Shown here: one piece after another, positions 7,518 through 23,980 of the stretch
Layout of the letters: the number at the start of each line of letters is the position of its first letter
How positions within the stretch are numbered: position 1 is the first letter of the stretch
Assembly (NCBI GenBank): GCA_944363735.1
Contig: CALVVB010000007.1
Span: 1 to 38,300 of the forward strand
Reading direction: 5' to 3'
Source of the DNA: an uncultured Bacilli bacterium
Lineage (GTDB): Bacteria > Bacillota_I > Bacilli_A > RF39 > UBA660
DNA: 38,300 bases
Translations under genes and position numbers: made by a program
Notes under the pieces: generated by a model
Database searches by the model: none
Told to the model about the DNA's origin: nothing
The model's input: only the letters and a program-made list of their open reading frames with translations

Positions 7518-7537
7518 AAAGAATAAGGAGGATTTTG

Positions 7538-8362
7538 ATGAATAATTTAGTTGTTGGTATAAAAAAATTCTTTACTAATAAGAATACAGTTACTGTTGTG
7601 GGTGTAATTCTTGCAATTGTCATCCTTTATGTTGGTTATAATATGCGTATTAATCAAGCGATAACACCTGTTACTGTTCCTTATGCTACACAAACAATTA
7701 AAGCTAGGACACAAATTACAGAAGATATGATTAGTACAATGGAGATTCCAAAATCAATGGTAACGGATTTAATCATTACAAATAGTGCAGATGTTATTGA
7801 TATGTATACTAATGGAGATAGTGTTATACCAGAAGGAAGTTTATTTTATAAAAGAAGCGTAGTATCGCGAGATCAACTACCTGATAGTATAATTTTAGAT
7901 TATCCTAAAGGTTATGTTTTATATAACTTAGATGTTGATATGGCTAGTACCTATAGTAACTCTATTTATCCTGGTAATTACATTGATATCTATCTAAAAG
8001 TTCAAAATGCTGAAGGTGCTGATGGTGCTATAATTGCTAGTGATAGAATTATGGTAGGTAAACTATTATCTAATGTTAAAGTTCTTGCAGTATTTGACAG
8101 TAATGGTAATAATGTATTTGCAAATCTTGATGAGAAGACTGCACCTTCACAAATTGTCTTTGCTGTACCAGAAGAATATCATATACTTCTTCGTAAAGCT
8201 AGTTTCTTAAGAGCTTATGAGTCTGAAATTATACCAGTTCCTACTGCAGAATCTTTAGACGATGAGCCAGGAGATGTAACTTTATCTAGTGAAGATTTAA
8301 GAAACTTTATTAATAATGTTACGGCTATGACAGAAGAAGATTTATCATATACACAGCAATAG
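7538..8362 (+). CDS. cpaB: CpaB/RcpC-like SAF-domain pilus assembly protein
   Basis: 274 residues from the ATG at 7538, which follows AAGGAGGA with 5 nt spacing; a TTG one codon upstream is less likely. One N-terminal membrane helix (about 19-36) is followed by a SAF domain. Its signature is seen near residues 55-75: an ATQTIKARTQITEDMIS stretch, then an IPKSMV strand. CpaB/RcpC proteins act outside the membrane in Flp/Tad pilus assembly. The neighbours are a pseudopilin gene upstream and the CpaF-type ATPase gene 16 nt downstream, the usual Tad order. The symbol is given by family similarity. Confidence 0.75.
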   Translation: MNNLVVGIKKFFTNKNTVTVVGVILAIVILYVGYNMRINQAITPVTVPYATQTIKARTQITEDMISTMEIPKSMVTDLIITNSADVIDMYTNGDSVIPEGSLFYKRSVVSRDQLPDSIILDYPKGYVLYNLDVDMASTYSNSIYPGNYIDIYLKVQNAEGADGAIIASDRIMVGKLLSNVKVLAVFDSNGNNVFANLDEKTAPSQIVFAVPEEYHILLRKASFLRAYESEIIPVPTAESLDDEPGDVTLSSEDLRNFINNVTAMTEEDLSYTQQ

Positions 8363-8377
8363 AAAGGGGATAATGTT

Positions 8378-9592
8378 ATGAACGATTCCATATTTGATAA
8401 GTTAGATTTTGGACTTTTTAAACCTTTAATAGATAATGATGATATAACAGATATTTCTTATTGTAACCATGGGCAAATTTGGATTCGTTCTTTAACAGAG
8501 GGATCTAAAAGAGTAGAGATTGAAGGGCTAAATGATGCTTTTGTTGAAAAGTTAGCCTTTCAGTGTTCTAATGTTATGGGTACAACATTTAATAATGCAA
8601 AACCATTTCTAGATGCAGAATCTACAGAACTTCGTCTTAACTTTGTTCATGATTCTATTGCTACTAATGGTATTGCTGTTGTTATTCGTAAAACCCCTGC
8701 TAAGATTAGACTTAATAAAGAAAAATTACTTAGTGAGGATTATTTTACTGCTAATATTCATGATATTTTAATGAAATGTGTTGAAGGACATTGTAACATA
8801 ATTGTAAGTGGTGAGACAGGCTCAGGTAAAACAGAATTTGTTAAATATCTAGCCAGTCATACTAAAGAAAATGAGAAAATTATTACAATAGAAGATACTT
8901 TGGAACTTCACCTTGATAAGATTTTTCCACATAGAGATATTGTGGCTATGAAAACTAATAACATTGCAAGTTACTCTGAAGTTTTAGTTACTTGTATGAG
9001 ACAAAATCCTAAATGGATTTTACTTTCAGAAGTTCGTAGCGCGGAAGCAGTTACTGCTGTTCGTAACTCAATTTCTTCAGGACATAATATTTTATCTACA
9101 ATTCATGCTGATAAGGCAAGTGCAATTCCATATCGTATGTATTCACTTCTTGAAAGTGATATTGATGTAGAACAGTTCTTAAATACAATATATAGATATA
9201 TTCAATTAGGTGTTCATATTAAAGCATATTACAGTAAAGAGTATGGAAAATTTCATCGTGAAGTAGATGAAGTAGTAGAGTTCTATGTAGATGATGATAA
9301 TAAACCTCAATCACATATTCTTTATCAAAAAACATTTGGAAAAGCTCCTGTACAAAATATGCCTAGTAAACATTTAAGAGAATATTTGGAGAATCAAAAT
9401 ATCTTCATTGACAATTTATTTACTAAAGGGGATTCGATGAGTAGTATTGATAATGAAGTTAGTAAAATAGTAGATACTTCACAAAATGAACAAGTTAGTG
9501 TAGTAGAAACACCTATTTTTAATAATAATACAAATCAAGGAGATCAAATATTACCTAAAGCTTCATTTATTACTGATACAGATATAGTTTAA
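8378..9592 (+). CDS. cpaF: CpaF/TadA-type secretion ATPase
   Basis: 404 residues of the GspE/VirB11 ATPase superfamily, CpaF branch. The Walker A motif GETGSGKT is at residues 145-152, the Walker B-like strand ILLSEVR at 214-220, and the histidine box TIHAD at 241-245. The usual GEVR of Walker B reads SEVR here. The N-terminal domain (1-110) matches the CpaF pattern of a strand contacting the nucleotide, followed by RKTP. The last ~60 residues are polar and probably disordered. CpaF powers Tad pilus extension at the cytoplasmic face of the TadB/TadC platform, whose genes follow directly. VirB11 belongs to the same superfamily and no other VirB11-like gene is present, so this ATPase might also serve the T4SS; that is inference. 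Confidence 0.9.
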   Translation: MNDSIFDKLDFGLFKPLIDNDDITDISYCNHGQIWIRSLTEGSKRVEIEGLNDAFVEKLAFQCSNVMGTTFNNAKPFLDAESTELRLNFVHDSIATNGIAVVIRKTPAKIRLNKEKLLSEDYFTANIHDILMKCVEGHCNIIVSGETGSGKTEFVKYLASHTKENEKIITIEDTLELHLDKIFPHRDIVAMKTNNIASYSEVLVTCMRQNPKWILLSEVRSAEAVTAVRNSISSGHNILSTIHADKASAIPYRMYSLLESDIDVEQFLNTIYRYIQLGVHIKAYYSKEYGKFHREVDEVVEFYVDDDNKPQSHILYQKTFGKAPVQNMPSKHLREYLENQNIFIDNLFTKGDSMSSIDNEVSKIVDTSQNEQVSVVETPIFNNNTNQGDQILPKASFITDTDIV

Positions 9593-9613
9593 AGAGGGGA
9601 GTGATTATAATAT

Positions 9614-10507
9614 ATGGTATTTTTCCTACTATTATTAATTGCTATTGTTATTTTGTTATATAGAAATTACAAAGGACAAAATGTTTCTAAATTTATTACA
9701 GATCAAGTTCAAGCAGTTTATGAAAGGTTCGCTCCTTACTCTTATAAAGTTGTAAGAGATAAAACTAAAGATTTAGGTCAGGAATATACAGCTAGACAGT
9801 ATTTAATTCAGATTTTAATTATGGGTGGTTTTGCTGGTATCGTTACCTATATGTATTTCTATAATATAGTTGTATCTATTATCTATATACTAATTGCTAT
9901 TGCTTTTATTCCCTATTTATCATTTTTAAGATGTAAAAGAGTATATAGTGAGTTTATCTTTGAACAAATTCAAGTATATACTACTAATACAATTATGGAA
10001 TTTGCAACAACTCAAAGTTTTGTTAAATCATTAGAAGGAGTAAGAGATTCTGGTATTTTAGAAGACCCTGTACTTAGTGATGTTAATAGAATGATAGAAA
10101 TGGCTTATGAAGAAGGTTCTATTGATGGAGCGTTAAATTTTATGAGTAATAAATATCCATATTATATAGTTAAGAATATGCACCAATTATTCTTACAAAT
10201 TACTAAAGAAGGTGCACAAGATACGGGAGAAAGTTTAGAAAATATGCAACTAGATATAGATACACTTGTTGAGAGTGTTTATCGTGATAGAATGGATAGG
10301 GCTACTTTTCATAAGAAATTTTTACAATATGGTATTATGTTATTCCTTTTAGTTATGTTAATACAATATATGCTTGGAAGTGAAAGTTATATTGAGTTAA
10401 TTAAAAGTCTTTGGGTACAAATAGTCCTTCACTTCATAATTATTTTTAATAGTTATTTCCTACTTAAAGGGGAAAAATATTATAATGAGAATGTGGGGGT
10501 TGAGTAG
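9614..10507 (+). CDS. tadB: TadB-like type II secretion F-domain platform protein
   Basis: 297 residues with membrane segments near 1-15, 60-82, 84-104, 237-253 and 262-282. The middle cytoplasmic part (about 115-230) has the helical T2SSF signature; the stretch around EFATTQSFVKSLEGVRDSG and the later QITKEGAQDTGESL pattern are typical. TadB and TadC form the inner-membrane platform on which the CpaF ATPase acts. The gene lies 21 nt after cpaF and 2 nt before tadC, so it is co-transcribed. An AGAGGGGAGTG ribosome site supports the ATG at 9614. Confidence 0.8.
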   Translation: MVFFLLLLIAIVILLYRNYKGQNVSKFITDQVQAVYERFAPYSYKVVRDKTKDLGQEYTARQYLIQILIMGGFAGIVTYMYFYNIVVSIIYILIAIAFIPYLSFLRCKRVYSEFIFEQIQVYTTNTIMEFATTQSFVKSLEGVRDSGILEDPVLSDVNRMIEMAYEEGSIDGALNFMSNKYPYYIVKNMHQLFLQITKEGAQDTGESLENMQLDIDTLVESVYRDRMDRATFHKKFLQYGIMLFLLVMLIQYMLGSESYIELIKSLWVQIVLHFIIIFNSYFLLKGEKYYNENVGVE

Positions 10508-10509
10508 AT

Positions 10510-11289
10510 ATGGAAATAGTAATTGTCGCAGTTGTTATCTTATTTATATTAATTTATAATAGAACTATAGATAAAGATAAATTTATTAATGATAATAAAA
10601 AATATTTTGAAGTACTAAAAGAAGATGATTATGACTTCTTGGTTTATGCAAAATATGGTGATAGTGCAGCTCCAAATATTTTATTTCAAAAAAGAATAAC
10701 TTATGCTATTGCGGTATTTTTCATATTTATGTTTTTGTTTATAGATGATGTTAGTCTAATAAACATAATCCTTTCTTGTTTGGTGGCAGTTCTTATATTT
10801 AAAATGCCATATATGCAATTAAAAAAATATTATAAAGCTCATTTGCATCAAATTGATATAATGTTGCCATACTATTTAAAGAGTTTAGAAATATTAATTC
10901 AACATTATACTGTTCCTGTAGCGATAGGTAAAAGTATTAATGATGCACCTGATATTTTTAAACCAGGGTTAAGGGAATTAATTGAAAAGATTAATTCTGG
11001 AGACTCTAGTATTAATCCTTATATGGATTTTGCTAATACATACCCAGTTAGAGACTCTATGAGAATGATGAGACTTCTTTATCGTTTAGGGCTTGGAGGA
11101 CAAGAGAAGAAACAAGAGAGACTTTTAATGTTTTCAAGGACTGTATCTAACTTACAAGCGAAGGCTCGTGAGACTAAATATAAAGAAAGACTTGATCATA
11201 TGGGTAATCAAACTATGATTATGCTTGTTGTTACAGGTGTTAGTGTTATGATTGTAATATTAGCGTCAATGTTAACAATGATTGCATAA
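10510..11289 (+). CDS. tadC: TadC-like platform protein
   Basis: 259 residues: an N-terminal helix (1-15), two helices near 70-100, a cytoplasmic T2SSF-like domain (about 115-225) and a C-terminal helix (234-257). The motif around DIMLPYYLKSLEILIQHY, then a PYMDFANTYPVRDS pattern, fits the TadC half of the Tad platform pair. It begins 2 nt after tadB, so translation is probably coupled. After it comes a 68-nt gap with a separate promoter for the small pilin gene, so this is the likely end of the first transcription segment, although no terminator is obvious. Confidence 0.75.
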   Translation: MEIVIVAVVILFILIYNRTIDKDKFINDNKKYFEVLKEDDYDFLVYAKYGDSAAPNILFQKRITYAIAVFFIFMFLFIDDVSLINIILSCLVAVLIFKMPYMQLKKYYKAHLHQIDIMLPYYLKSLEILIQHYTVPVAIGKSINDAPDIFKPGLRELIEKINSGDSSINPYMDFANTYPVRDSMRMMRLLYRLGLGGQEKKQERLLMFSRTVSNLQAKARETKYKERLDHMGNQTMIMLVVTGVSVMIVILASMLTMIA

Positions 11290-11294
11290 ATTTA

Positions 11295-11323
11295 GTTACA
11301 AAGTAACAAATATTTGGTATAAT
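11295..11323 (+). promoter_or_regulatory. Promoter for the Flp-like pilin gene
   Basis: A perfect TATAAT (11318-11323) carries an extended -10 TGG in front of it. GTTACA (11295-11300) lies 17 nt upstream and is itself part of the small inverted repeat GTTACAAAGTAAC (11295-11307). The start codon follows at 11358 behind AAAGGAGAG. A private promoter fits a pilin needed in large amounts. Confidence 0.65.
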
Positions 11324-11357
11324 TAATTTTATAAGATATGAAAGGAGAGATGCTTAA

Positions 11358-11519
11358 ATGAAGGAAGCGACTGGAGAATTAAATATGACTGTTATAACAA
11401 TAATAATGGTTGGTGCTATTCTTATATTCTTTTGGGCTTTTTGGGATAATATCCAAGCTGCTATTGAGGATCAATGGGAAACTTCAACTCAAATAGAAGA
11501 TAATCATGGTGTTAATTAA
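11358..11519 (+). CDS. Flp-like major pilin (53 residues)
   Basis: A 53-residue reading frame with an AAAGGAGAG ribosome site 7-8 nt before the ATG and its own extended -10 promoter. The protein starts MKEATGELNMTVITIIMVGA. A short polar leader ends in Gly6, followed by Glu and a long hydrophobic helix (about 9-30), then an acidic polar tail. This is the size and layout of Flp pilins, which are cut after a glycine by a prepilin peptidase. The canonical Flp Glu-Tyr pair is not present, so the assignment rests on size, helix and position between tadC and the TadE-like gene. It is probably the main subunit of the pilus. Confidence 0.65.
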   Translation: MKEATGELNMTVITIIMVGAILIFFWAFWDNIQAAIEDQWETSTQIEDNHGVN

Positions 11520-11540
11520 TTAGTAAGGATGTGATTAATA

Positions 11541-11999
11541 ATGAGAGATGCGATAGGACAAGTTTTTACATTACAAATAATTTTAGCTTTTGTACTTTTA
11601 ATTAATGGATATATGGCTTATTCTGTTAATTATACTAGAGCATTTCGAGTTAAGAATCAAATAGTTAATATTATAGAGCAGTATGAAGGACCAACTGATG
11701 AAGCGATGGCTAAAATAGGAAGTTATGTTGATGGGATGACTTATAAAGTTCCACAGACTCTTATTAACAACTTTAGAAATAATTATTCTTCAAACAGCGG
11801 AGAATCTGCTGTTAGTTGTCAAGATGGTTGGTGTTATATTGCTCATAATGTTAAAACTACAGGTGGCGATGGAGAATTAAATGGTACTTATTATTCTGTT
11901 ATTACTTTTGTCAACATAGATATACCTGTTATTAATAATTTGATAGGATTGGGAGACTTTTTGAGTGTTTCTGGTGAGACTAGAACAATTTATAGATAG
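11541..11999 (+). CDS. TadE-like minor pilin (putative)
   Basis: 152 residues. The leader MRDAIG is followed by a hydrophobic helix (QVFTLQIILAFVLLINGYMA, residues 7-26), then a polar region with a cysteine pair around residues 93-98 (SCQDGWC). Gly6 before the helix matches the layout of the neighbouring pilin and of the 7056 protein. TadE/TadF-type pseudopilins prime or cap Tad pili and carry a small extracellular domain stabilised by a disulfide. The gene is 21 nt after the pilin gene and 14 nt before the TadZ-like gene. No family signature beyond this layout was recognised. Confidence 0.55.
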   Translation: MRDAIGQVFTLQIILAFVLLINGYMAYSVNYTRAFRVKNQIVNIIEQYEGPTDEAMAKIGSYVDGMTYKVPQTLINNFRNNYSSNSGESAVSCQDGWCYIAHNVKTTGGDGELNGTYYSVITFVNIDIPVINNLIGLGDFLSVSGETRTIYR

Positions 12000-12013
12000 A
12001 AGGAAGTGAGATA

Positions 12014-12994
12014 ATGAACGTTATAATTGCTAATGAAGCGAAAGCAATGCTGTCTACTTTAGATATTGATGTTATTAAAAGTGTTGATGGCATTCATACA
12101 GCTGATGAAATTGTTGAGATGTTCAAAAACTTCTTTTATGCAAGAATGATTTTAGATATTACAGCTATTAAAGATTATAATGATATTACCAATATTCAAA
12201 AAATATCTATTGGTCTTGATGCTGATAAAATCATTCTTTTACTTCCTAATAATGAGGCCTCTACTTCTAGTAGTTATTTATCTAAAATTATTTCTATGGG
12301 GATATATAACTTTACTACAACAGTAGATGGGATTAAGTACTTTTTAGAGCATCCTAATACTTATAAAGATGTGGCTCATATACAACAACTTAATGATTTG
12401 TCTACTACTATTAATGAAAAAGTAGTAGCAGGATCTAGAATAATAGGAATAAAGAATGTTACTGATCATGCTGGTAGTACTACCTTAATTTATATGCTAA
12501 AGAAAGAATTAGAACAGTCTTATGGAATGAGTGTTGTGGCAATAGAAGTTAATAAACATGATTTTTCTTACTTCAATAGTAGTAATATGATATCTATAGA
12601 TGATGAACATTTAATGACTGAGATTGTGAAACATAATGATGTTGCAATTATCTTGGTAGATTTGAATGATTCTAGTAATGAAGGAGCTTGTAGTGATGTT
12701 TTATATTTAATAGAGCCTTCTTCTATTAAATTAAATAAATTAATGAGAAGAAATAGAAGAGTCTTTGAGGAGTTAAAGGGTAGAAAGATAATACTTAATA
12801 AGAGTTTACTTTCTAACAGTGATATTATGGATTTTGAATATGAGGGAAAGACTAAAGTCTTTTATAATATACCACCACTTAATGATAGAGTTAAAAATCC
12901 TGTTCTTAGTGATTTTTTATCTAAGATAGGACTTATTAATAAGACTAGTGAAAAAGAAAGTGGAGGGAAAATATTTGGGTTATTTAAACGATAA
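12014..12994 (+). CDS. TadZ/CpaE-like protein with degenerate P-loop
   Basis: 326 residues in two parts: an N-terminal receiver-like domain (about 1-115) and a ParA/MinD-like domain (about 140-300). TadZ/CpaE proteins place Tad pili at a cell site. The nucleotide loop should read roughly KGGxGKT; here residues 147-157 read KNVTDHAGSTT, which lacks the catalytic lysine while keeping the strand before and the TT after. A Walker B-like strand (VAIILVDLND) follows near residue 215. The protein may thus bind nucleotide poorly or not at all, as seen in some atypical TadZ proteins. It lies 14 nt after the minor pilin gene and ends the Tad section; a new promoter follows 3 nt later. Confidence 0.6.
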   Translation: MNVIIANEAKAMLSTLDIDVIKSVDGIHTADEIVEMFKNFFYARMILDITAIKDYNDITNIQKISIGLDADKIILLLPNNEASTSSSYLSKIISMGIYNFTTTVDGIKYFLEHPNTYKDVAHIQQLNDLSTTINEKVVAGSRIIGIKNVTDHAGSTTLIYMLKKELEQSYGMSVVAIEVNKHDFSYFNSSNMISIDDEHLMTEIVKHNDVAIILVDLNDSSNEGACSDVLYLIEPSSIKLNKLMRRNRRVFEELKGRKIILNKSLLSNSDIMDFEYEGKTKVFYNIPPLNDRVKNPVLSDFLSKIGLINKTSEKESGGKIFGLFKR

Positions 12995-12997
12995 TAA

Positions 12998-13026
12998 TTG
13001 ACAAATCTTAATATTTTATATATTAT
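12998..13026 (+). promoter_or_regulatory. Sigma-A promoter before the VirB2-like genes
   Basis: A perfect TTGACA (12998-13003), 17 nt spacer and TATTAT (13021-13026). The first VirB2-like gene starts at 13,050 with AAAGGAGA. It separates the Tad section from the T4SS section. Confidence 0.8.
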
Positions 13027-13049
13027 TATTGTAGTAAAGGAGAGTTTTT

Positions 13050-13418
13050 ATGAATAGTATGATGTTAATGAATATGTTTCAAATATTAGATGCAGTTAAT
13101 CCTGAAGATAATTGTCGTGGATTTGGTTTTATTGTTAGAATTATTAAAAATGGTTTATTTCCTATTTTACAAATAGGTATACCTATTGTTTTAATAGTTT
13201 TAGGTACACTTGATTTAGGTAAGGCAGTTATAAGTAGTGATGATAAAGCCGTTAAAGAAGCACAATCTAAATTAATTAAGAGATGTATTTATGCAATATT
13301 AGTATTCTTTATTGTAACACTTATTAATTTATTATTTACAATGGTAGGTAATATTGCTGGTGATGATGCTCCTGGATTAACACAATGGAGTCAGTGTTGG
13401 AGTAATCCAGAAGGTTAA
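13050..13418 (+). CDS. VirB2-like two-helix membrane protein, copy 1
   Basis: 122 residues with two membrane helices (about 35-55 and 75-98) joined by a short loop reading SSDDKAVKEAQSKLIKR. This layout is that of VirB2/TrbC-type T4SS pilins. A cysteine lies before the first helix (DNCRGFGF) and another after the second (WSQCW), both predicted outside, so a disulfide could close the hairpin. The next gene is a clear paralogue, and a third copy of the helix pair ends the 13,893 protein. It has a strong promoter just upstream and an intrinsic terminator just downstream, which points to a subunit made in excess. VirB2 identity is inferred from topology and neighbours. Confidence 0.6.
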   Translation: MNSMMLMNMFQILDAVNPEDNCRGFGFIVRIIKNGLFPILQIGIPIVLIVLGTLDLGKAVISSDDKAVKEAQSKLIKRCIYAILVFFIVTLINLLFTMVGNIAGDDAPGLTQWSQCWSNPEG

Positions 13419-13431
13419 TGATTTAGTAAAT

Positions 13432-13453
13432 AGCAATTTAATTGCTGTTTTTT
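13432..13453 (+). terminator. Intrinsic terminator after VirB2-like copy 1
   Basis: Stem AGCAAT/ATTGCT (13432-13437 and 13441-13446) with loop TTA, followed by GTTTTTT. It probably reduces read-through into the second copy. Confidence 0.75.
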
Positions 13454-13472
13454 CTATTTAAGGAATGATGAT

Positions 13473-13811
13473 ATGATTCAGATATTAGATAGTGTTGTAA
13501 ATGTTGAGAGTGCTTGTTATGGTTTTGATTTTATAGTAAGAATTATTAAAGATGGGATATTTCCTATTATGCAGATAGTAATACCTATTATTTTAGTAGT
13601 GCTTTGCACTTTAGATTTAGGTAGGGCTGTTATAGGAAGTGATGATAAAGAAAATAAGAAAATTTTAAAGAGAATTGTGAGAAGATTAGTTTATGCAATA
13701 TTAATTTTCTTCTTTGTTACAGTTATTAATCTTATATTTACTATGGTAGGTAATATTACAGAAAATGAAGCTTTAATTAGATGGAGTCAGTGTTGGAATA
13801 ATCCTATGTAA
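13473..13811 (+). CDS. VirB2-like two-helix membrane protein, copy 2
   Basis: 112 residues, a close paralogue of the 13,050 product. Both share the GF.FIVRIIK.G.FPI segment, the TLDLG.AVI.SDDK loop, the second helix ending LIFTMVGN and the C-terminal WSQCW. The loop has diverged (ENKKILKR instead of AVKEAQSK). The cysteine before helix one (SACYGF) and the one in WSQCW are kept. Start ATG at 13,473 follows AAGGA. A terminator stands on each side, so expression relies on read-through or on a promoter I cannot see. The duplication may allow a mixed or alternative pilus subunit. Confidence 0.6.
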   Translation: MIQILDSVVNVESACYGFDFIVRIIKDGIFPIMQIVIPIILVVLCTLDLGRAVIGSDDKENKKILKRIVRRLVYAILIFFFVTVINLIFTMVGNITENEALIRWSQCWNNPM

Positions 13812-13822
13812 AATTTATTTGA

Positions 13823-13854
13823 AATAGCAATTATAATTGCTATTTTATTTTTCT
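13823..13854 (+). terminator. Intrinsic terminator after VirB2-like copy 2
   Basis: A perfect 22-nt palindrome AATAGCAATTA/TAATTGCTATT (13823-13844) followed by TTATTTTTCT. Its core stem AGCAAT is the same as in the terminator after copy 1, consistent with duplication of gene plus terminator. Confidence 0.75.
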
Positions 13855-13892
13855 AATGATATACTTATATTATGATTGGAGTGGGACTTGAT

Positions 13893-15101
13893 ATGAAGAG
13901 AAGAATTTTAGTTATTATGCTGGTTATAGGTATTTTAGCTTTTAATGTAATTACTGTTAATGCGGATGATTTTTATGATGTTGATGATTTTGATACTGAC
14001 TATATATTTGATTCTTGTGTTAAAGACAAGACTTGTATGGTTGTTTGTAATTATGCTACTAGTACTCCACAAGTTACAATTTATTATGATTTTGTTGATA
14101 AAGAATGGCGCGTTTCTTGGTATTCTGCTGGTCGTGGTGGTAAAATGTATGATTCTAAGACAGGTAAACACAATCATGTTTTTTCAGATTCAGGTGATGC
14201 TATATATATTCCTAAAAAACATACTAATAACAATTTCACTTGTCCAAATTATGCATATCAAGATGAAAGTTTTACAAATAGCCACAATGAAATCTGTTTT
14301 GATAATAATGGTAAATGGTGTAAAGAAGATAAAAGCAATTTTGCTACAGATTTTAAAGATTCAATTGATAAAAAATATGATTTTAATGATGAATTAAAAA
14401 CGTACTTTGATTTGTGGTATAATAATGATGTTAAAAGTAGCTTAAGTTGTAATTCAATATATAGTGAAGAAAATAATGAAATTGCTAAAAATTTATTAGA
14501 TAGATTTAAAGGCGATATGGCAAATACGTTTGTTTTCAATGGAGCACCTGCGGAACAGTTACCTAGTTTCATTATTAATTCTTCATCCTGGAATTATATA
14601 GCTTCTACTATTGGTGATGATGTTGTAGAGGTAGCAAATGGTTGTCATTCCCAAACTGAACAAGCTTATGCAAATGGAGAGATTTCAGCTGAAGTATATA
14701 ATGATAGAATTAATAAGATAAAAAAAATAATCGAAGTTACTGAAACTGAGATTGCTATACAATTGGATCCTAATAAAAATGAAGCAAGCACAGATTATTG
14801 GAATCAAGAAATAGAATGTGAAGATATTTTTGAGTTTGATAAAGAGGGCTCTGTCGGATGGATGCTACAAACTATATTTGATTATATCAAAGTTATAGGA
14901 CCTGTTATTGTAGTATTATTAAGCGCTATTGACTTTATTAAAGCAGTAGTTGGTACTGACGAAAAAGCTATGAAAGAGGCACAGTCTAAACTTATTATTA
15001 GATTAGTTGCAGCTTTAGCATTGTTTTTAATTCCAACATTAATACAACTACTACTTAATTTTATTAATGTTACTTTGTCTGATGGGTGTTATCTAAAATA
15101 A
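13893..15101 (+). CDS. Secreted ectodomain fused to a VirB2-like helix pair
   Basis: 402 residues from the ATG at 13,893; upstream GTG or ATG codons would add residues before an evident signal peptide (MKRRILVIMLVIGILAFN, cleavage near VNA/DDF). A cysteine-containing extracellular domain follows (about 25-320), with pairs such as CVKDKTCMVVC near the start. The C-terminal ~80 residues carry two helices and the loop GTDEKAMKEAQSKLIIR, nearly identical to the loop of the 13,050 protein. Cysteines bracket this hairpin as well (IECEDIFEF before, DGCYLK at the end). It therefore looks like a VirB2-like hairpin fused to a large exposed domain, perhaps a tip or base subunit. The ectodomain family is not recognised. 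Confidence 0.6.
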   Translation: MKRRILVIMLVIGILAFNVITVNADDFYDVDDFDTDYIFDSCVKDKTCMVVCNYATSTPQVTIYYDFVDKEWRVSWYSAGRGGKMYDSKTGKHNHVFSDSGDAIYIPKKHTNNNFTCPNYAYQDESFTNSHNEICFDNNGKWCKEDKSNFATDFKDSIDKKYDFNDELKTYFDLWYNNDVKSSLSCNSIYSEENNEIAKNLLDRFKGDMANTFVFNGAPAEQLPSFIINSSSWNYIASTIGDDVVEVANGCHSQTEQAYANGEISAEVYNDRINKIKKIIEVTETEIAIQLDPNKNEASTDYWNQEIECEDIFEFDKEGSVGWMLQTIFDYIKVIGPVIVVLLSAIDFIKAVVGTDEKAMKEAQSKLIIRLVAALALFLIPTLIQLLLNFINVTLSDGCYLK

Positions 15102-15126
15102 AAAGTATTTAAAAGAGGTGATCTAA

Positions 15127-17133
15127 ATGAATAATCCTGACTTTTGGGTAGACGCAATACGTTCGGTATTTGCATTTATTGATTCTGTTGGATATCTTTT
15201 ATTGACTGCTGTATATAAAATATTTTTTACAGTTGCTAATGCTCAATTGTTAGAAGGAGATGTAGTTACAGAATTTTTTAGCCGAATACAATTAATTTTA
15301 GGGGTATTAATGACTTTTAAATTAGCTATTACTGCTCTTAATATTATCATTAATCCAGATATGTTTAAAGATAAGGAAAAAGGAGCAGGAAAAGTACTTA
15401 TGAGAATAGTTGTCTCTTTGATTTTACTTACTCTTGTTATTCCTGTTAATATTCCGGAAAATGAAGATAGTTCATTAAACCAACAAATACGTAATAATGG
15501 TTTTCTTTTTGGTTTTTTATATCAATTTCAAAATTCAGTTTTGCAAGATAATATATTGGGTAAGCTTATTTTAGGAAGTGATGTTGAAAGTAATGAAGGC
15601 AATTATGGGGATCTTAATAATTTGAGTGATATAGGTATGACGCTCTCAACAACAGTAGCTCAAGCCTTTATTACACCTACTTTAAAAGATAATGTGACTA
15701 ATCCTAAAATGGGACCTGATGGTCGAATTTCAGAAGAAGATGTTGCATGTTCTATTGTTTTAACTGATTATGAATATGGACTGCCGTCAACTTCATACGA
15801 GGATTATTTAAAGTATATAAATGATACTTGTGATTATGATGGTAAAGAGGTGTATATTTTTAATTACACACCTTTTGCTGGATTAGTATGCTCACTCATT
15901 ATGACTGTAATTATAATAGGATTTACTTTGGATATTGCTGTTAGAGCTATTAAATTAGCTATTTTGAGATTAATAGCACCTATACCTATTATTTCTTATA
16001 TTAGCCCAGGACAGGAAAAGAATGGAGCTTTTGGTAATTGGGTTAAAACTCTAGCTTCTACATATATAGATCTGTTTTTAAGACTAGCTATTATTTATTT
16101 CGGTGCTTATGTAATTTTAATAATTAGTGAAGGTGGTATAACAATATGGCAAAATACACCAGATGTATTTACTAGTTTGTTTTCAACTGTTTTTATAATT
16201 ATTGGTGTTTTAGTATTTATGAAAGAAGCTCCAAAGTTTTTCCAAGATATGTTAGGTATTAAAGGTGATGGTAAACTATTTAGTGGTATTGGTACTATGT
16301 TAGGTGCTGCTGCTTTAACAGGGGGGGTTGCTGGTTCTGTTGTTGCAAATGCTAAAACATCTTTTGGGGAACATCAAGATAAAGGCCATGGTATGTTTAA
16401 AAGTGTTTTAGGTGCTGTTGGTTCTGGTTTTGCTGGTGGTCTTGGTGGTGCTTTTGTAGGAGGAAAAGCTTTGTTAACTTCTGATAAAAATAAGGCAAGT
16501 GCTGTTAGAGCTGCTCAAATGAAAAGAAATACTATTAGACAAGGTGGTTCTACTTGGTGGGGTAGAGCAAAAGATACTGTGGCAAGTACATTAACAGGTT
16601 CTTCTCCTGCAGATGTATTAGATAGTAAAATTGAGAGTTATAATACTGCTGCAGGACTAGCTAAAAATATTATGGATATGGCTGATGCAGATGGTGATTG
16701 GAAATATGTAGATAATGCTGGAGTAGAGCATGGTAGTGTAAAAGATTTAAAAGAAAATTTAGAGAGATTAAGATATTCTAATGCTTCGTATGATGATATA
16801 GAAAGAGCTGAAAAACTATATAAAGCTGCTCAAAGTTCAAGAGTTTCTCAAGTTTTACGAGGTGTAGGCATTGATGAAGGTAATTTTGCTCCTCAAATGT
16901 GGCAAGATTATCAAAATCTTAGGAAACTTGATAAGGGTTATGGACTAGGCTTGTTAGAAAAGTTAGATACTCAAATTGAACATTACGATCCTACTGGACC
17001 TGGAGGAGCAGATGGTGCTGATAAGGGATTAGTTGGTACTTTCAAATCTGTTAGTCCAGTTGCTACATATAAGGCTCGTAATGTTCAGAATAGTGGTGAG
17101 TATAAAGCTCGTAAAGTTAATAAAACTAAATAA
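15127..17133 (+). CDS. VirB6/TrbL-like T4SS channel membrane protein
   Basis: 668 residues. Membrane segments lie near 15-40, 55-75, 90-107 and in a cluster from about 250 to 365. A glycine/alanine-rich stretch follows (about 385-450), and the last ~200 residues are soluble, polar and partly helical. This is the VirB6/TrbL layout, the polytopic core of the T4SS translocation channel. The motif around FTLDIAVRAIKLAILRLIAP and the ISYISPGQEK stretch resembles TrbL-type proteins of Gram-positive conjugation systems. The gene is followed 20 nt later by the PrgI gene, the usual order in Firmicutes T4SSs. A run of seven G lies in the coding sequence at 16,321-16,327, unusual in such AT-rich DNA. 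Confidence 0.75.
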   Translation: MNNPDFWVDAIRSVFAFIDSVGYLLLTAVYKIFFTVANAQLLEGDVVTEFFSRIQLILGVLMTFKLAITALNIIINPDMFKDKEKGAGKVLMRIVVSLILLTLVIPVNIPENEDSSLNQQIRNNGFLFGFLYQFQNSVLQDNILGKLILGSDVESNEGNYGDLNNLSDIGMTLSTTVAQAFITPTLKDNVTNPKMGPDGRISEEDVACSIVLTDYEYGLPSTSYEDYLKYINDTCDYDGKEVYIFNYTPFAGLVCSLIMTVIIIGFTLDIAVRAIKLAILRLIAPIPIISYISPGQEKNGAFGNWVKTLASTYIDLFLRLAIIYFGAYVILIISEGGITIWQNTPDVFTSLFSTVFIIIGVLVFMKEAPKFFQDMLGIKGDGKLFSGIGTMLGAAALTGGVAGSVVANAKTSFGEHQDKGHGMFKSVLGAVGSGFAGGLGGAFVGGKALLTSDKNKASAVRAAQMKRNTIRQGGSTWWGRAKDTVASTLTGSSPADVLDSKIESYNTAAGLAKNIMDMADADGDWKYVDNAGVEHGSVKDLKENLERLRYSNASYDDIERAEKLYKAAQSSRVSQVLRGVGIDEGNFAPQMWQDYQNLRKLDKGYGLGLLEKLDTQIEHYDPTGPGGADGADKGLVGTFKSVSPVATYKARNVQNSGEYKARKVNKTK

Positions 17134-17153
17134 TAAAAGGAGTGTGATATATA

Positions 17154-17477
17154 GTGAATTATTTAATACCTGCTAATACAAAGAGTGGAAAACTTATTCT
17201 TGGTATATTTAAACCTTTTGATTTAATATTACTGGGAACTGGGGTTCTGATTTCTCTTGTTATGTTGATGACATTTCCAATGTCTTCCAATTGGCAAGTT
17301 ATTATTGTGGTTTTACCAGGATTAATTAGTGCTTTTCTAGTTATTCCTATTCCTAATTACCATAATATCTTAACAATAATTATAGAATGTTATAATTTCT
17401 TTACTAATAGAAGGAATTATATATGGAAAGGTTGGTGTGTTAAAGATGTCGAAGATATCCCAAAAGAAGGTAAGTAG
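17154..17477 (+). CDS. PrgI/VirB3-like T4SS membrane protein
   Basis: 107 residues with two membrane helices (about 22-43 and 47-68) and a short C-terminal tail. Size, the N-terminal YLIPANTKSGKL and the position just before the VirB4 genes are typical of PrgI-family VirB3 proteins. The start is GTG at 17,154, behind AAAAGGAGTGTG. The end overlaps the next gene by about 30 nt, so the two are probably translated in a coupled manner. Confidence 0.8.
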   Translation: MNYLIPANTKSGKLILGIFKPFDLILLGTGVLISLVMLMTFPMSSNWQVIIVVLPGLISAFLVIPIPNYHNILTIIIECYNFFTNRRNYIWKGWCVKDVEDIPKEGK

Positions 17478-18006
17478 TCAATATACTGAAGATTGGTTAC
17501 CAATTAAAGGAATTCAAAATGGTTATATTATCTGTGAAGGAAAACAAAGAGTTACTGGAGTTAAAATTACTCCTCGTAATATCTTTATTCTTGATGAACA
17601 GGCTCAAGATAATGTCTTGATTAGTCTTAAAAACTTTTATAATATGATAGATTTTGAGTTTTGGTTGGTAGTTGCAGATAGACCTGTAGATATATCTGTT
17701 TATATGTCACAATTGCAACTTTTATATAATGATGCTACTTCTCCTGCAATTCGTAAACTTATATTACAAGATATAGATAAGGGTAATACTTTTGTTAATA
17801 ATAGTATTGTTGATACCGAGTATTACATTATGTTTAAAGATACTAGTGAAGATGTTTTACAGAAAAGAGTTAGAATGCTTATTAATGGTCTTGCAAGTTG
17901 TGGTCTTAATGCTTCACAAGTTAGTAATGATGACTTAAGAATAGTTTTAGAGAATTTCTTAAATGGGGGAGTTAATACAGAGTTTGGGACGGTGATGCCT
18001 GTATGA
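17446..18006 (+). CDS. VirB4 N-terminal domain as a separate protein
   Basis: 186 residues from the ATG at 17,446 (GGTG 8 nt before). An in-frame GTG at 17,437, 5 nt after AAAGG, is an equally possible start. The sequence matches the front part of Gram-positive VirB4/TraE-type proteins: a WLPIKGIQNGYIICEG start, a strand in which the ligand-binding domain is described by ITPRNIFILDE, then LKNFYNMIDFEFWLVV. It has no ATP-binding motif. It ends with a 4-nt overlap (ATGA) with the ATPase gene, so the usual single VirB4 polypeptide is split in two, coupled genes here. The two products probably form one complex. Confidence 0.65.
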   Translation: MSKISQKKVSSQYTEDWLPIKGIQNGYIICEGKQRVTGVKITPRNIFILDEQAQDNVLISLKNFYNMIDFEFWLVVADRPVDISVYMSQLQLLYNDATSPAIRKLILQDIDKGNTFVNNSIVDTEYYIMFKDTSEDVLQKRVRMLINGLASCGLNASQVSNDDLRIVLENFLNGGVNTEFGTVMPV

Positions 18007-19793
18007 GTATAAGTATTAAAAGTCAATTAGCTCCTAAAGGGCTACAATTTTATCCTAGTGATTTCTTTATCAGTGATAAGTATGCAACTATTCTTTCAGT
18101 TATATCTTATCCAAGATTCATCGCTCCAGGATATTTATCTACTCTTACATCTATGAGTGGTATTAAAATAGTTATTAAACATATTCCTGTACCGTTTAGT
18201 ACTATGTCTAAAATGATTAATAGACAAGTTGCAGATTTAAGAGAAAAATATCGTCAAGAAAAAGATCAAACGGCTAAAGAAAGTATTAGACAGGATGCTG
18301 AAAGTTTAGAGTCTTTTGTATCAATGTTAGCATCTAGTCAGTCTCGTATCTTTGACTTTCAAATGCATATTATGATAAATGCTGATACTAAAGAAGATCT
18401 AGAGCTTAAAAAAGTTAATGTTAAAAATTATCTAGATGCAATGGAGTTAAGAGCAGTATCTCTTAGATTTGAACAAGAAAAAGTCTTAAAAAGTATATTA
18501 CCAATATTTCCTAGTCAAGATATAGAAGAAAGAGTTGGTACACCTATTCCTTCTCCTACAATTGCAGCAATGTATCCTTTTATCTTTGATAGTATTAAAG
18601 ATCCAGGATTATCTGTTTTACTTGGAGTAGATTTCTCTGGTGGGGTAATTCTATTTAATCAATTCTTATATCAAATTAGAAAAGAAAATAATAGAAATAA
18701 TGCTAATATGATTATTCTTGGTACTTCTGGTAGTGGTAAATCTACTGCTGCTAAATTACTTTTAAGAACACATATTAGAAATGGTTGTCAGATAGTTGCA
18801 ATTGACCCTGAAAACGAATTAGAAGAGATGACTAGAACCTTTGGAGGAGATGTTGTTGATATCGGTAAAGGTGGAGAGTATGGTCTTATTAATCCATTAG
18901 AGGTTATTATTGATGCCGATGATGAAGAGATAAGTCAAGGATTAGGTTATACTGTACTTACTCGTACTTTACAATCATTAAGGGCTTTTATGAAGTATTA
19001 TGATCCATCTATAGAAGAAGATGTTTTAAATATGTTTAGTGAAATTGTTCAAGATACATATAAACGTTTTGGAATAGATTTTAATACTGATTTTTCTAAA
19101 TTTACATCAGCTGATTATCCAACTTTCTCTGATGTTTATGCTACTATTAAAGGTAGACTTATGTCTTTAACAGAACAAACTAGAGAAAAAGATATTATAC
19201 AAACATTAGAGTTAAAAATTAGACCTTTAATTAAAGAATTAAAATTCTATTTTGATGGTAAGACTACTATAACTGCTGATAGTGATTTTATGGTATTTAA
19301 TATAAAAGAATTTATGAATTCTGATACTAATATTAGAAATGCTTTATTCTTTAATGTATTAAAATATGCTTGGGGACTTTGTCTTGATGCTGATGTTAAT
19401 ACAATACTTATGGTTGATGAAGCACATGTGTTACTTGGTACTAATAATGAACAAGGAGCTGATTTCCTTGCGCAAGTACAAAGACGTGCTCGTAAATATA
19501 ATACTGGTACAATAATTATTACACAACAACCAAGTGATTTTTCTAGTCCTACTATTATTACTCAAGGTAAAGCAATATTTGATAACTCATCATATTATCT
19601 TGTTATGGGACTTAGAAAACAGGCAGTTGAAGATTTGTCATTACTAATAGACTTAAACGAAAATGAGAAGGATAGTATAAAACGCTATTCACAGGGCGAG
19701 GCATTATTCGTTTGTGGTAATAGAAGAATGAGAATAAATGTTGTTGTTACACAAGAAGAATTAGAATCATTTGGTAGTGCAGGAGGATTTTAG
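18003..19793 (+). CDS. VirB4-like T4SS ATPase
   Basis: 596 residues. Walker A GTSGSGKST is at residues 240-248 and Walker B TILMVDEAH at 467-475, followed by QVQRRARKYNTGTIIITQQ, the conserved arginine-rich and sensor region of the VirB4/TraC group. VirB4 is the main energising ATPase of all T4SSs, at the cytoplasmic face of the channel. Residues 1-220 are the remainder of the N-terminal domain, whose first part is encoded by the preceding gene. A coiled segment lies near 75-105 (ADLREKYRQEKDQTAKES). Confidence 0.9.
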   Translation: MSISIKSQLAPKGLQFYPSDFFISDKYATILSVISYPRFIAPGYLSTLTSMSGIKIVIKHIPVPFSTMSKMINRQVADLREKYRQEKDQTAKESIRQDAESLESFVSMLASSQSRIFDFQMHIMINADTKEDLELKKVNVKNYLDAMELRAVSLRFEQEKVLKSILPIFPSQDIEERVGTPIPSPTIAAMYPFIFDSIKDPGLSVLLGVDFSGGVILFNQFLYQIRKENNRNNANMIILGTSGSGKSTAAKLLLRTHIRNGCQIVAIDPENELEEMTRTFGGDVVDIGKGGEYGLINPLEVIIDADDEEISQGLGYTVLTRTLQSLRAFMKYYDPSIEEDVLNMFSEIVQDTYKRFGIDFNTDFSKFTSADYPTFSDVYATIKGRLMSLTEQTREKDIIQTLELKIRPLIKELKFYFDGKTTITADSDFMVFNIKEFMNSDTNIRNALFFNVLKYAWGLCLDADVNTILMVDEAHVLLGTNNEQGADFLAQVQRRARKYNTGTIIITQQPSDFSSPTIITQGKAIFDNSSYYLVMGLRKQAVEDLSLLIDLNENEKDSIKRYSQGEALFVCGNRRMRINVVVTQEELESFGSAGGF

Positions 19794-19819
19794 TAAGAAC
19801 GTAGAAAGGCAGTGGTATT

Positions 19820-21610
19820 ATGATAGAAGAAGATAGGAGAAAATGTAAAAAAAAGAAAAATAATAAAGATGGTAAAGAGAGTATAGATGTTTCTTCTTCT
19901 AAAACAGTGCTTATTTTTAAGCTTGTTGTAATAGCATTTGTCTTTTCTTCTTTTTTAGTATTATCAGTATCTTTTGTTAATAAAAATAAAATAGATAATA
20001 TTTTATTTGTTGATAATTCTGTTGCTTATAGTGATGCTGCAGAAGAGTATTATGATAGATTAGATAATGTATATAATGAATATAATAGTTCTAATAAAGA
20101 ATTTTCTAAATTAATTATTACTTCTACTTTTTCTATTTTATGTTTTCATATAGAAGGTTTTTCTTATCAAGATATGACAGAAGATAGGATGAGAGAAGTT
20201 GCAGATTTAATGCTTGATGAAGCTGAAAATGAAGATGGTAGTATTACCTATACTAAAAAAGGAAAAGAAGCTGCTAAAGAGAGTTTGGTTAATTATTTTA
20301 AAGAAATCGATTCTACTTTATTAGATGTTACTTGTGAAAGAATGGCTGAAGATGTTTTTGAGTATGTTGAAGCATATTTAGAATTTATTGGAGAAGAAGA
20401 GGAAGAAGAATCTTCATCTTCTTGTGATGGTAATTCTTATTGGTGGCCTATTGGTAGTGCGGAAACTACTACTGAAAATGGTGTTACTTTTGCTAGTGGA
20501 GATCCAGTACCTTCTACTATAACTGCTACTTTTGCAGGAAATGATTCTGTTCATAATGGCAATCATGGGGCGATTGATATTTCTAATGGTAATGGTGTTG
20601 GTGGTACTAATATAATTGCTGCTAAAGATGGAATTGTAATTTATCCTACAAGTGCAGAGCTAACTCAGTTTGCTGATAATGGATATGTAGGTAATCCTGA
20701 AGGTGGTGGCTTTGGTAACTATGTGGTTATTCAGCATTCTGATGGTAATTATACTTATTATGCTCATATGGCTCAAAATAGCATTACAGTTATGGCTGGT
20801 GATAATGTTAGACAGGGGCAAGTAATTGGTAAAATGGGACATTCTGGTAGTTCTACAGGAACTCATTTACATTTTGAGGTTAGAGCAGGTGGTAATTCTC
20901 ATTCAAATAGAGTTGATCCTTTAGAATATGTTAGCATTGATAATCCTCGCCCTGGTTGTGTTGATTTCTCATTAACTTCAACATCCTTATCAAAACAGGA
21001 ATTTATTTCTAAAATGGAAGCATATTGTACTAATAGTGGTAATAGTGATTTCTGTACTAATTTTTCGAATCATGCTGGAGAAGTTTATGATGTATCAATT
21101 GATTCAGGTGTTAATCCTGAACTTGTAGTAGTAACAGCAGGAACAGAACAAGGATGGCGTAAATGTGGTGGCCTTTATAACTTTTGGGGGATTGGTATAC
21201 CAAATGGTGCAGGTTGTAGTGCTGGGCCTCAGTTAACTTCTCTTGCCGCAGGAATTAGAGAATATGCTAGTACTTTAGCTGCTTACCAACCTGGTGGTAG
21301 CTCTGCATCTATGATTGAACAAAGAAATCAACAAAGAGAAGAAGCTGGTTGCGATGATGCAGGTCATGGGCCTCCTGGAAGTTTAGCAGGAATGCAGTCT
21401 GTTTATTCTTGGGTAGGTGATTATCGTTATAATCCTGGAAGTTCTTCTTTAGGAGGATGTTACTATTTAAATATAATTTATGGTGCTAATTATTGTAATA
21501 CTGTTCCATCTGGTAATAATGTTCCAACAACTGTTTGTGAACAAAATGATTATACTGCTTGGCAGTTACAGGAAAAGTTAGAACTTAGAAATGCAATATT
21601 TGGTTTATAG
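19820..21610 (+). CDS. Bifunctional wall hydrolase: M23 peptidase plus glucosaminidase-like domain
   Basis: 596 residues: basic N terminus, one membrane anchor (29-53), a helical region, then two enzyme domains outside. The LytM/M23 zinc peptidase has HxxxD at 249-253 (HGAID), His316 (YAHM) and HLH at 349-351 (THLHFEV). The C-terminal part (about 395-560) looks like a GH73/lysozyme-type glucosaminidase, with AGTEQGW (probable catalytic Glu443) and YNFWGIG. It fills the VirB1 role: opening peptidoglycan so that the T4SS can pass the thick wall. An acidic linker (EEEEEE near 192-197) separates anchor and enzyme. The gene lies 26 nt after virB4. Confidence 0.85.
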   Translation: MIEEDRRKCKKKKNNKDGKESIDVSSSKTVLIFKLVVIAFVFSSFLVLSVSFVNKNKIDNILFVDNSVAYSDAAEEYYDRLDNVYNEYNSSNKEFSKLIITSTFSILCFHIEGFSYQDMTEDRMREVADLMLDEAENEDGSITYTKKGKEAAKESLVNYFKEIDSTLLDVTCERMAEDVFEYVEAYLEFIGEEEEEESSSSCDGNSYWWPIGSAETTTENGVTFASGDPVPSTITATFAGNDSVHNGNHGAIDISNGNGVGGTNIIAAKDGIVIYPTSAELTQFADNGYVGNPEGGGFGNYVVIQHSDGNYTYYAHMAQNSITVMAGDNVRQGQVIGKMGHSGSSTGTHLHFEVRAGGNSHSNRVDPLEYVSIDNPRPGCVDFSLTSTSLSKQEFISKMEAYCTNSGNSDFCTNFSNHAGEVYDVSIDSGVNPELVVVTAGTEQGWRKCGGLYNFWGIGIPNGAGCSAGPQLTSLAAGIREYASTLAAYQPGGSSASMIEQRNQQREEAGCDDAGHGPPGSLAGMQSVYSWVGDYRYNPGSSSLGGCYYLNIIYGANYCNTVPSGNNVPTTVCEQNDYTAWQLQEKLELRNAIFGL

Positions 21611-21624
21611 GAGGTGGTTTTGAT

Positions 21625-22149: not shown

Positions 22150-22616
22150 TGGTAAGAAATGTTAAAATAATTATATTCATAGTATTTGTCTTTCTAATTG
22201 CTTTTTTTATCTTTAGAAATATAAGAGGAGTGGAAGAAGCTTCTAGGAATCTCCCTAGTAATGAACAGTTAGAAGAGTTTAGTAATGTGTCCCCTAAAAG
22301 TTCTGTTAATAGTTATGAAGTTAAAGATATTCCTGATAGGGAACTTGCTACTATATATTATAATCATTTTAAAGACTTAATTATTAATAATGAAGAAGAA
22401 GCATATAAAAGACTTAGGAATAAAGACGATACAACATTAGCTAAATTTGAAGAATTAAAGAGTAGTTTAACTAATAATTATTATGGTAATAAAGTAGTTA
22501 GTTATAGAATATCTAAAAATAATGAAAAGTCCATTTATAGAATTGAAAATAGTGATAAAAAGACAATTATATTTTATGTAGATGCAGTTTTTAAATATGA
22601 AGTAGATATTGTTTAG
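22149..22616 (+). CDS. Small membrane-anchored protein, VirB8-like candidate 2
   Basis: 155 residues with one N-terminal helix (about 5-23) and an outer domain starting DIPDRELATIYYNHFKDLI, then beta-rich segments. The layout is the same as the preceding protein (anchor, helices, strands), so the two may be distant paralogues and may form a heteromer. They share a 1-nt overlap (TAATG), so translation is coupled. VirB8-like identity is tentative; a lipid- or wall-binding role is equally possible. Confidence 0.4.
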   Translation: MVRNVKIIIFIVFVFLIAFFIFRNIRGVEEASRNLPSNEQLEEFSNVSPKSSVNSYEVKDIPDRELATIYYNHFKDLIINNEEEAYKRLRNKDDTTLAKFEELKSSLTNNYYGNKVVSYRISKNNEKSIYRIENSDKKTIIFYVDAVFKYEVDIV

Positions 22617-22639: not shown

Positions 22640-23980
22640 ATGCCAGAAGAAATTGAAAACTTGGAAGATGAAAATAATGTAAATGAACAGGGGAATTCTT
22701 CTTCTAAATCATCACCTAGTAGTGCTGCTAGTAAAGCAGCTAGTAATATTATAGATTTTAATAAGTATAAAAGTAGAAAAAATAATAAAGCTAATATTGA
22801 TTCTAGCTCTGCTAAAAATAAATCTGGTAATAATCTTAAATCAACTATTCCTAAAAAGGGAAGCAGTGCTATTAATGGATTAAAGAATAAAGCTACTAAT
22901 GCAATGTTAGATAAAGTATCTAATGTTCATCCGGCTTTAAAAGCTCTAAGTGTTCTTAATAATATTAATAATGCTAGAAAAGCTAAAAAAGCTGCTAAAG
23001 CTGAAAAGTCAGAAAATGCAACTGCTAATGGTGAGGCTAGTGATAATAAAAGTAGCGAAAATACTACTAATACTACATCCTCTAATACAGATGATGGAAC
23101 TTTAAATGAATCTTTAAATCCTTTAAGTTCTATTTCTAATTTTAAAGATAGTATATTGGGAAACTTCAGTTTTTTTGGTCACATTTCTTTACCAAAAAAA
23201 ATTACTATAATAGGAATTGTTTTATTATCTGCTTCATTACTTTTAGGAGTAATACCATTGCTTATAATTTTTGGAGCTTTTAGTGGCCTTTTTGGTGCAG
23301 ATGAAATAACAGCAAGTGGAGGTACTGGTAATATTGATTATGGTGAATATGTATTATCTTCAGAAGGTGATGAAATATTACATCAGCCTCTTGATGAGTT
23401 TTTATCTTCAAAAGGTACTAGTTTAGAAGCATTTAATAATTTAATTGCTTCTAATGTAGAGAAGAATGGTTATGGTACACGTGAAGGTGTTGTAACTGCA
23501 GCTGTTACCTTAATTGCAGAACTTGGAAATAATTATAATGTTAAAGTCCCTTATTTTTGGGGAGGTGGACATGCTGATGGAGTTGTTGATGGTGCTTTAG
23601 GTTATTGGGGAAGCACACAGTGTCATACTTATGCTAATGGTCAATCCTATAACTATTGTGGACTAGATTGTTCTGGTTTTGTTCCTTGGGCAATTAAAAA
23701 TGGCGGATTTAATATTACACCTTTAGTTACTGGTGGTTTTCAAAGTTTACCTGGGGCAGAACGTGTTTCTTTAACAAATAGTGCTGTTTTACAACCAGGA
23801 GATTTATTGGAATCAAGTGGGCATGTAATATTAATAGTAGGAGTAGATGAGAATAATTATATATGTGCTGAAGCGGCAGGAAATGAAACAGGAGTATTGT
23901 TTTCTACTCATCCTTTTAATGCTTCTGGATATTGGGGGGTTAATATGGAAGGATTCTATAATACACGTGCAAGGAGCTAA
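22640..23980 (+). CDS. NlpC/P60 wall hydrolase with long disordered N-terminal tail
   Basis: 446 residues. The first ~185 are low-complexity, rich in Ser, Asn, Lys and Ala, and predicted cytoplasmic. One membrane helix follows (188-215). The outer C-terminal domain is an NlpC/P60 cysteine peptidase: Cys344 in GLDCSGFV, His395 in SGHVILIV, and a preceding PYFWGGGH pattern. This family cuts peptide stems of peptidoglycan. With the M23/glucosaminidase protein it gives the cluster two wall-opening enzymes, as in Gram-positive T4SSs. The long cytoplasmic tail is unusual for a wall hydrolase and could contact the ATPases. Confidence 0.85.
   Translation: MPEEIENLEDENNVNEQGNSSSKSSPSSAASKAASNIIDFNKYKSRKNNKANIDSSSAKNKSGNNLKSTIPKKGSSAINGLKNKATNAMLDKVSNVHPALKALSVLNNINNARKAKKAAKAEKSENATANGEASDNKSSENTTNTTSSNTDDGTLNESLNPLSSISNFKDSILGNFSFFGHISLPKKITIIGIVLLSASLLLGVIPLLIIFGAFSGLFGADEITASGGTGNIDYGEYVLSSEGDEILHQPLDEFLSSKGTSLEAFNNLIASNVEKNGYGTREGVVTAAVTLIAELGNNYNVKVPYFWGGGHADGVVDGALGYWGSTQCHTYANGQSYNYCGLDCSGFVPWAIKNGGFNITPLVTGGFQSLPGAERVSLTNSAVLQPGDLLESSGHVILIVGVDENNYICAEAAGNETGVLFSTHPFNASGYWGVNMEGFYNTRARS

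Follow-up and report, generated by a model that had tools for sequence, protein, structure and literature searches.

Three consecutive genes of an uncultured Bacilli bacterium, HP1, HP2 and FUS (positions 13050-15101), were found to carry the same two-helix hairpin, which is bracketed on its outer face by a pair of invariant cysteines and which, judged by profile comparison, is a divergent T4SS_pilin (PF18895). We consider it just on the probable side that HP1 is a covalently clamped major pilin and FUS a minor subunit presenting a variable ectodomain. The whole stretch of DNA analysed, 38,300 nucleotides long, is referred to here as the window, and the genes and signals described between 7535 and 26909 lie on its forward (+) strand.

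HP1 (13050..13418) encodes a protein of 122 aa without a signal peptide, whose bracketing cysteines are C22 (codon 13113-13115) and C116 (13395-13397) and whose C-terminus carries an invariant W..CW. HP2 (13473..13811; 112 aa; C15, codon 13515-13517, and C107, 13791-13793) is a duplicate of HP1, 64% identical to it and confined to a subclade. FUS (13872-15101) is 409 aa long when counted from the first ATG and 402 aa from the ATG at 13893, where a signal peptide begins (13893..13967, ending in VNA and followed by DD); after it come a Cys-rich ectodomain of the type 'cluster 2' (13968..14813) and the C-terminal Cys-bracketed hairpin (14814..15101), with C316 (14817-14819) and C406 (15087-15089) in the 409-aa numbering. 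An earlier note, made from the letters of this DNA, had described one two-helix unit in three consecutive genes, the third as the C terminus of a 402-residue secreted protein, and both descriptions were borne out. It had also noticed EAQSKLI as identical in copies 1 and 3, which was confirmed for HP1 and FUS; but HP2 carries SDDKENKKILKRI in its place, and therefore only the start of the loop, and not a whole loop type as had been claimed, is common to all three. Likewise, a cysteine ahead of the first helix and another behind the second were indeed seen in each gene, but as a full count this falls short, as there are in-helix cysteines in HP1 (C79) and HP2 (C45) and eight more in the FUS ectodomain. 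FUS is more distant from HP1 and HP2 but still clearly homologous: alignment of the HP1 and FUS profiles with hhalign gave a probability of 99.7% and an E of 1.4e-25 over a region which includes the first cysteine, and their likeness is thus beyond chance. AF2 placed the helices of HP1 at 26-61 and 65-102 (pLDDT 81.8) and those of FUS at 321-353 and 357-396 (402-aa numbering), so that both bracketing cysteines of FUS are nearly equidistant, about 45 residues, from the turn.

In alignments of homologues the flanking cysteines were invariant in all three proteins. Counting unique sequences only (the genome sets from two releases overlap), we observed the first cysteine of HP1 in 74/74 sequences with a residue there and the second in 77/77, while both were retained in 14/14 HP2 and 86/86 FUS sequences. 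The background Cys frequency, 0.55% in ten neighbouring proteins, amounts to a 15% chance of any Cys per 30-residue flank. Orphan hairpins (30/30) and hairpin-enzyme fusions (36/36) also possess the bracket; what marks the FUS cases flagged in this survey is just a longer spacer, and these were aligned separately. The in-helix cysteines were considered as part of the clamp and left out, that of HP1 being unconserved (C79 position, 46/77) and that of HP2 conserved (C45, 14/14). Readable PF18895 relatives outside the window's family (Mollicutes, other Bacilli) were found to lack the bracketing cysteines.

The pilin-like identity claimed earlier was supported: PF18895 matched 16/19 FUS relatives and, with a best E of 1.4e-7, 23/35 HP1 orthologues. 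The VirB2 profile (TrbC, PF04956) found no match in a profile search of the genome and its proteins. With a PF18895 cut-off of 26.6 bits, the window copies gave no match (HP1), 14.0 bits (HP2) and 14.5 bits (FUS); hairpins of genomes in the family exceed the cut-off. Hydropathy and AF2 both gave two hydrophobic helices with a short charged loop, in agreement with the T4SS_pilin layout. A fold search with HP1 returned generic helix pairs and no pilin among the matches listed, a two-helix hairpin being an uninformative query, and sequence searches of HP1 and two FUS types against solved structures yielded nothing significant. For the FUS ectodomain, the AF2 mean pLDDT was 66 (five sequences), with no PDB match at E <= 0.001 and with VIA Z below 8, the model being a weak one.

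Natural fusions at both ends of the hairpin, together with its K/R-rich loop, indicated that the cysteines lie on the outer face, as the earlier note had predicted, and not in the cytoplasm. On the N-terminal side, FUS consists of signal peptide, ectodomain and then hairpin, and in genome G036 a GDSL-like domain is N-terminal to the hairpin. On the C-terminal side, CHAP, C39, M23, VanY, S11 and GDSL domains follow orphan hairpins. Since secreted or cell-wall domains are fused at either end, the hairpin should be oriented N-out/loop-in/C-out; the mean number of K/R residues is 4-8 in the loop, with almost none after helix 2. Both termini would thus be outside and the loop cytoplasmic or lumenal, as in VirB2-type pilins. 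A locus of a sister genus (L179:123-1025) encodes a GDSL/SGNH-like hydrolase followed by a C-terminal bracketed hairpin.

The three genes are preceded by a Tad-like module (7535..12994) comprising CpaB (7535), a TadA/VirB11-superfamily ATPase (8378), TadB-like (9614) and TadC-like (10510) proteins, a TadE-like pseudopilin (11541) and a gene at the TadZ position (12014). The TadA-type ATPase and CpaB, which together mark a Tad pilus, were both called by profile (TadA-family E 3e-31 and CpaB E 4e-9, neither reaching its equivalog cut-off), and TadB, TadC, TadE and TadZ by position and a look at the sequence only. Downstream are a VirB6/TrbL-like membrane protein (15127..17133; PF19597 E 1.5e-9), a VirB3-like small membrane protein (17154..17477; called by position and conservation, its profile match, to the start of NF045975, being very weak), the N-terminal part of VirB4 (17437..18006; NF045975 E 7.5e-16), the VirB4 ATPase (18003..19793; NF045975 E 1.1e-103), an M23 peptidase with many conserved cysteines and a putative VirB1-like role (19820..21610; PF01551 E 7e-22), an NlpC/P60-like protein (22640..23980; PF00877 E 0.0036, below cut-off) and a VirD4-type coupling ATPase (24738..26909; NF045973 302 bits, cut-off 250; PF02534 E 8e-58). 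The profile matches of VirB4, VirB6 and coupling ATPase, the combination that marks a T4SS, upheld the secretion-system neighbourhood proposed before. Two overlapping ORFs (17437-19793; 189 and 596 aa) make up VirB4, in relatives as well. An N-terminal hairpin of VirB6 was tried as a fourth copy of the unit and rejected, as profile comparison gave only 2-13% probability. For PF03432, the sole relaxase family searched, no match was found in the window (contig C7); it occurs in 13/35 genus genomes (in that of the window, on other contigs), as against 29/35 with this VirB4. The order Tad-HP1-FUS-T4SS recurs in relatives with enough flank. Elsewhere in the window, an exported-looking protein of 927 aa with 31 cysteines (4271-7054) adjoins a sortase (3511-4293) and an Ig-like surface protein (1667-3499), and a gene for a SpoVAC/SpoVAEB-type sporulation membrane protein (31760-32203) is present in a genome of 1.25 Mb.

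We also examined the expression layout, as read from sequence patterns. HP1 is preceded by a sigma-A-like promoter, TTGACA-17-TATTAT (12998..13026; 11/12 match). Promoters scoring 11/12 or better occurred before HP1 in 60/75 unique loci; for six other genes the figure was 0-1. Downstream of HP1 comes a terminator-like stem-loop with a T-tract (13428..13459; 66/75 unique loci), its AT-rich stem being missed by a stricter generic scan. For FUS, VirB6, VirB4, TadB and TadZ the corresponding counts are 0-1 promoters and 2-13 terminators per gene; HP2 has a terminator-like stem-loop (13820..13856; 14/15 unique loci) and no promoter. With its own promoter and terminator HP1 has the look of a unit expressed strongly and on its own, as is expected of a major pilin, and a minor-subunit role of FUS fits this layout. 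The T4CP gene (24738) has its own promoter-like site (at least 10/12) in 63/84 loci, unlike most cluster genes.

The FUS ectodomains fall into about 19 BLAST groups, and one to three FUS genes are found in tandem, some genomes having 2-3 with different ectodomain types. In 30/70 loci the ectodomain is absent and FUS (<250 aa) consists of signal peptide, linker and hairpin; its presence or absence has changed at least 3-4 times on the VirB4 tree. In a comparison of the window with genome G009, identity is 90-99% for most other genes (84% for M23, 77% for NlpC-like), but the FUS ectodomain (27%) is unrelated and VirB6 is only 48% identical. In two relatives with an unrelated ectodomain, the first 26 aa of FUS are 62-73% and the hairpin 69% identical to those of the window, and Ala24 of the signal peptide is invariant in five aligned homologues. 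An unrelated ectodomain between a kept signal peptide and a kept hairpin is what recombination through conserved ends would give. VirB6 is conserved very unevenly, with sharp divergence between otherwise near-identical genomes. At VirB4 identity of at least 96%, VirB6 identity was 0.73 with the same ectodomain type and 0.65 with a different one (permutation p 0.012, the tree not being fully controlled for), a weak co-variation which gives only a hint that FUS and VirB6 are co-inherited. A swappable ectodomain together with a diverging VirB6 points to recognition of a target or host, which the ectodomain may bring about.

The window belongs to a 1.25 Mb metagenome-assembled genome (MAG) related to Bacilli MAGs and of low GC (28% in the window). 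Among 439 VirB4 relatives in the genome collection, 80, which are 81-99% identical, were kept; many come from MAGs of animal guts, among them Ca. Onthousia and Ca. Faecimonas, and Faecimonas has been placed in the order RF39 (PMC8035907). Across the phylum the hairpin profile matched 10/295 genomes, all of the window's family (10/11 sampled), and 0/284 others; the one sampled family genome without hairpins (G107) is without VirB4 as well. All the family genomes used appear to be MAGs, and several contigs break at hairpin repeats. Besides the three genes, the window's genome has a further copy which is a hairpin only (G000:C63:62918-63109). The genome G293 has 15 hairpin matches at scattered places (loci L249-L260), most with C-terminal cell-wall or glycan-active enzymes; over the many loci with such fusions, the partners of the hairpin are VanY, S11, CHAP, C39, M23, GDSL, YkuD-like and GH99-like domains. 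As orphan hairpins also occur in G002 and G021, both without this VirB4, the module appears to work outside the T4SS too.

We propose that HP1 would be made in abundance and may polymerise, as the major subunit, into a VirB2-like filament or stalk (T4SS_pilin family). FUS would be a low-abundance subunit whose variable ectodomain is shown at the surface, the base or the tip, and both proteins would be inserted N-out/loop-in/C-out. The outer-face cysteines most likely form one intramolecular disulfide joining both outer ends of the hairpin, doing by redox chemistry what peptide cyclisation does in TrhA. Such a bond is plausible because all ten cysteines of FUS are invariant within its ectodomain type among homologues of only 31-44% identity, as would suit an ectodomain rich in disulfides. 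That the cysteines instead link separate chains, bind a metal or serve as lipidation sites seems to us improbable, though no classical disulfide oxidase, DsbA-like (PF13462) or VKOR (PF07884), was found in the 35 genus genomes and the habitat is likely the anaerobic gut, going by the sources of the MAGs. Against that reading, every paralogue group has exactly one invariant Cys position per outer end, and conserved Cys pairs occur in VirB6 (C208/C235, invariant) and in the NlpC-like protein too. The best candidate partner for extracellular disulfides is possibly a CcdA-thioredoxin fusion with a CFSC motif (G000:C63:36517-37671), which is present in most, not all, genus genomes.

Our model has against it the failure to find a disulfide oxidase or a pilin among the fold matches, and the PF18895 scores of the window's copies, which lie under the cut-off. 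The orphan hairpins of G002 and G021 also count against it, as they imply that hairpins are not only T4SS parts, and together with the enzyme fusions at many loci and the numerous matches in G293 they are what one would expect if the hairpin were a membrane anchor of general use that does not polymerise, clamping compactly with both termini outside (N-out/C-out) and tethering ectodomains and cell-wall enzymes, with HP1, HP2 and FUS only scaffolding the secretion channel. We regard this as rather unlikely, yet the likeliest of the alternatives: HP1 is almost a pure hairpin with its own promoter and terminator, it sits in an operon of pilus genes, and the similarity of the hairpin is to a pilin family and not to a known anchor. 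The same fusions, by their enzyme repertoire, and a T4SS with a VirD4 coupling protein and no relaxase in the cluster, would also suit cell-wall-attacking effectors which leave via this T4SS with the hairpin as export signal; but such enzymes remodel the own cell wall too and orphan hairpins exist without this VirB4, and we find this reading very hard to credit. A different difficulty arises from G293, where the cluster is split: HP1 lies directly downstream of TadZ on contig C7 with unrelated genes after it, and a short FUS, VirB6 and VirB4 are on contig C2, which links HP1 to Tad and FUS to the T4SS. HP1 may therefore serve the Tad machine, and this also counts against our model. HP1 is operon-linked to the Tad module rather than to VirB6 and directly follows TadZ in the loci with enough flank, as it would if HP1 were a Tad-linked membrane or filament subunit and FUS alone served the T4SS. 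On the other hand, Tad pili consist of type IV pilins and not of two-helix hairpins, HP1 and FUS are homologous, and both modules are contiguous in most genomes, so we give this reading little credence. To the same small degree we entertain a broader version of our own, in which the clamped pilin hairpin has turned into a general display or export module that builds the pilus and bears exchangeable FUS heads and cell-wall enzymes, the T4SS or pilus presenting or delivering them to neighbouring cells.

A search of the open-access literature gave no paper describing this cluster or the Cys bracket, though absence there is no proof of novelty; the Tad-like and relaxase-less T4SS cluster (7535-26909), kept across many uncultured Bacilli, is apparently undescribed. 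A 2025 review describes Gram-positive T4SSs as being without VirB11 and, Patescibacteria excepted, without VirB2-type pilins (PMC12857230). In contrast, many uncultured Bacilli combine a VirB2-like pilin with a TadA/VirB11-superfamily ATPase in one conserved cluster with no linked relaxase. The hairpin-enzyme fusions, in turn, offer a topology that can be tested for an entire class of hypothetical proteins, which they may also connect with secretion. One of the closest parallels is with Patescibacteria, monoderms with arrays of 2-11 VirB2 genes and T4SSs mostly without relaxase (PMC12102498, where PF18895 and PF04956 were used); the invariant Cys bracket, the ectodomain and enzyme fusions and the joined Tad-like module set the present cluster apart, and the main text of that paper makes no mention of disulfide or Tad. 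The window VirB4 is closest to the VirB4 profile of Mollicutes integrative conjugative elements (NF045975), and the pilin-like proteins of Mollicutes conjugative elements (Mbov_0395/MMCAP2_0565, NF045849; PF18895 hits) are small two-helix proteins as well; their readable relatives differ in having neither bracketing cysteines nor an ectodomain.

Furthermore, the archaeal Ced/Ted pilins CedA1 and TedC form T4SS-derived two-helix pili on single-membrane cells (PMC9905601). CedA1 is secreted without processing, comparable to the signal-less HP1, and the N-terminus of CedA reuses a pilin-like unit inside another protein, as the hairpins do; the paper mentions no cysteine or disulfide. The proposed role of FUS resembles that of PilB of Streptococcus sanguinis, a minor pilin made of a pilin module and a grafted adhesive module (PMC8179133), which differs in being of the type IV pilin class with an unrelated fold. 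For the clamp itself an analogue would be the H-pilus pilin TrhA, a VirB2-class hairpin whose outer ends are covalently joined by peptide cyclisation, which is essential for pilus assembly (PMC12037004). TrhA is closed by a peptide bond and the hairpins described here would be closed by a disulfide, so that the Cys bracket suggests that pilins can be closed covalently by a second kind of chemistry, one that can be directly tested on a small protein.
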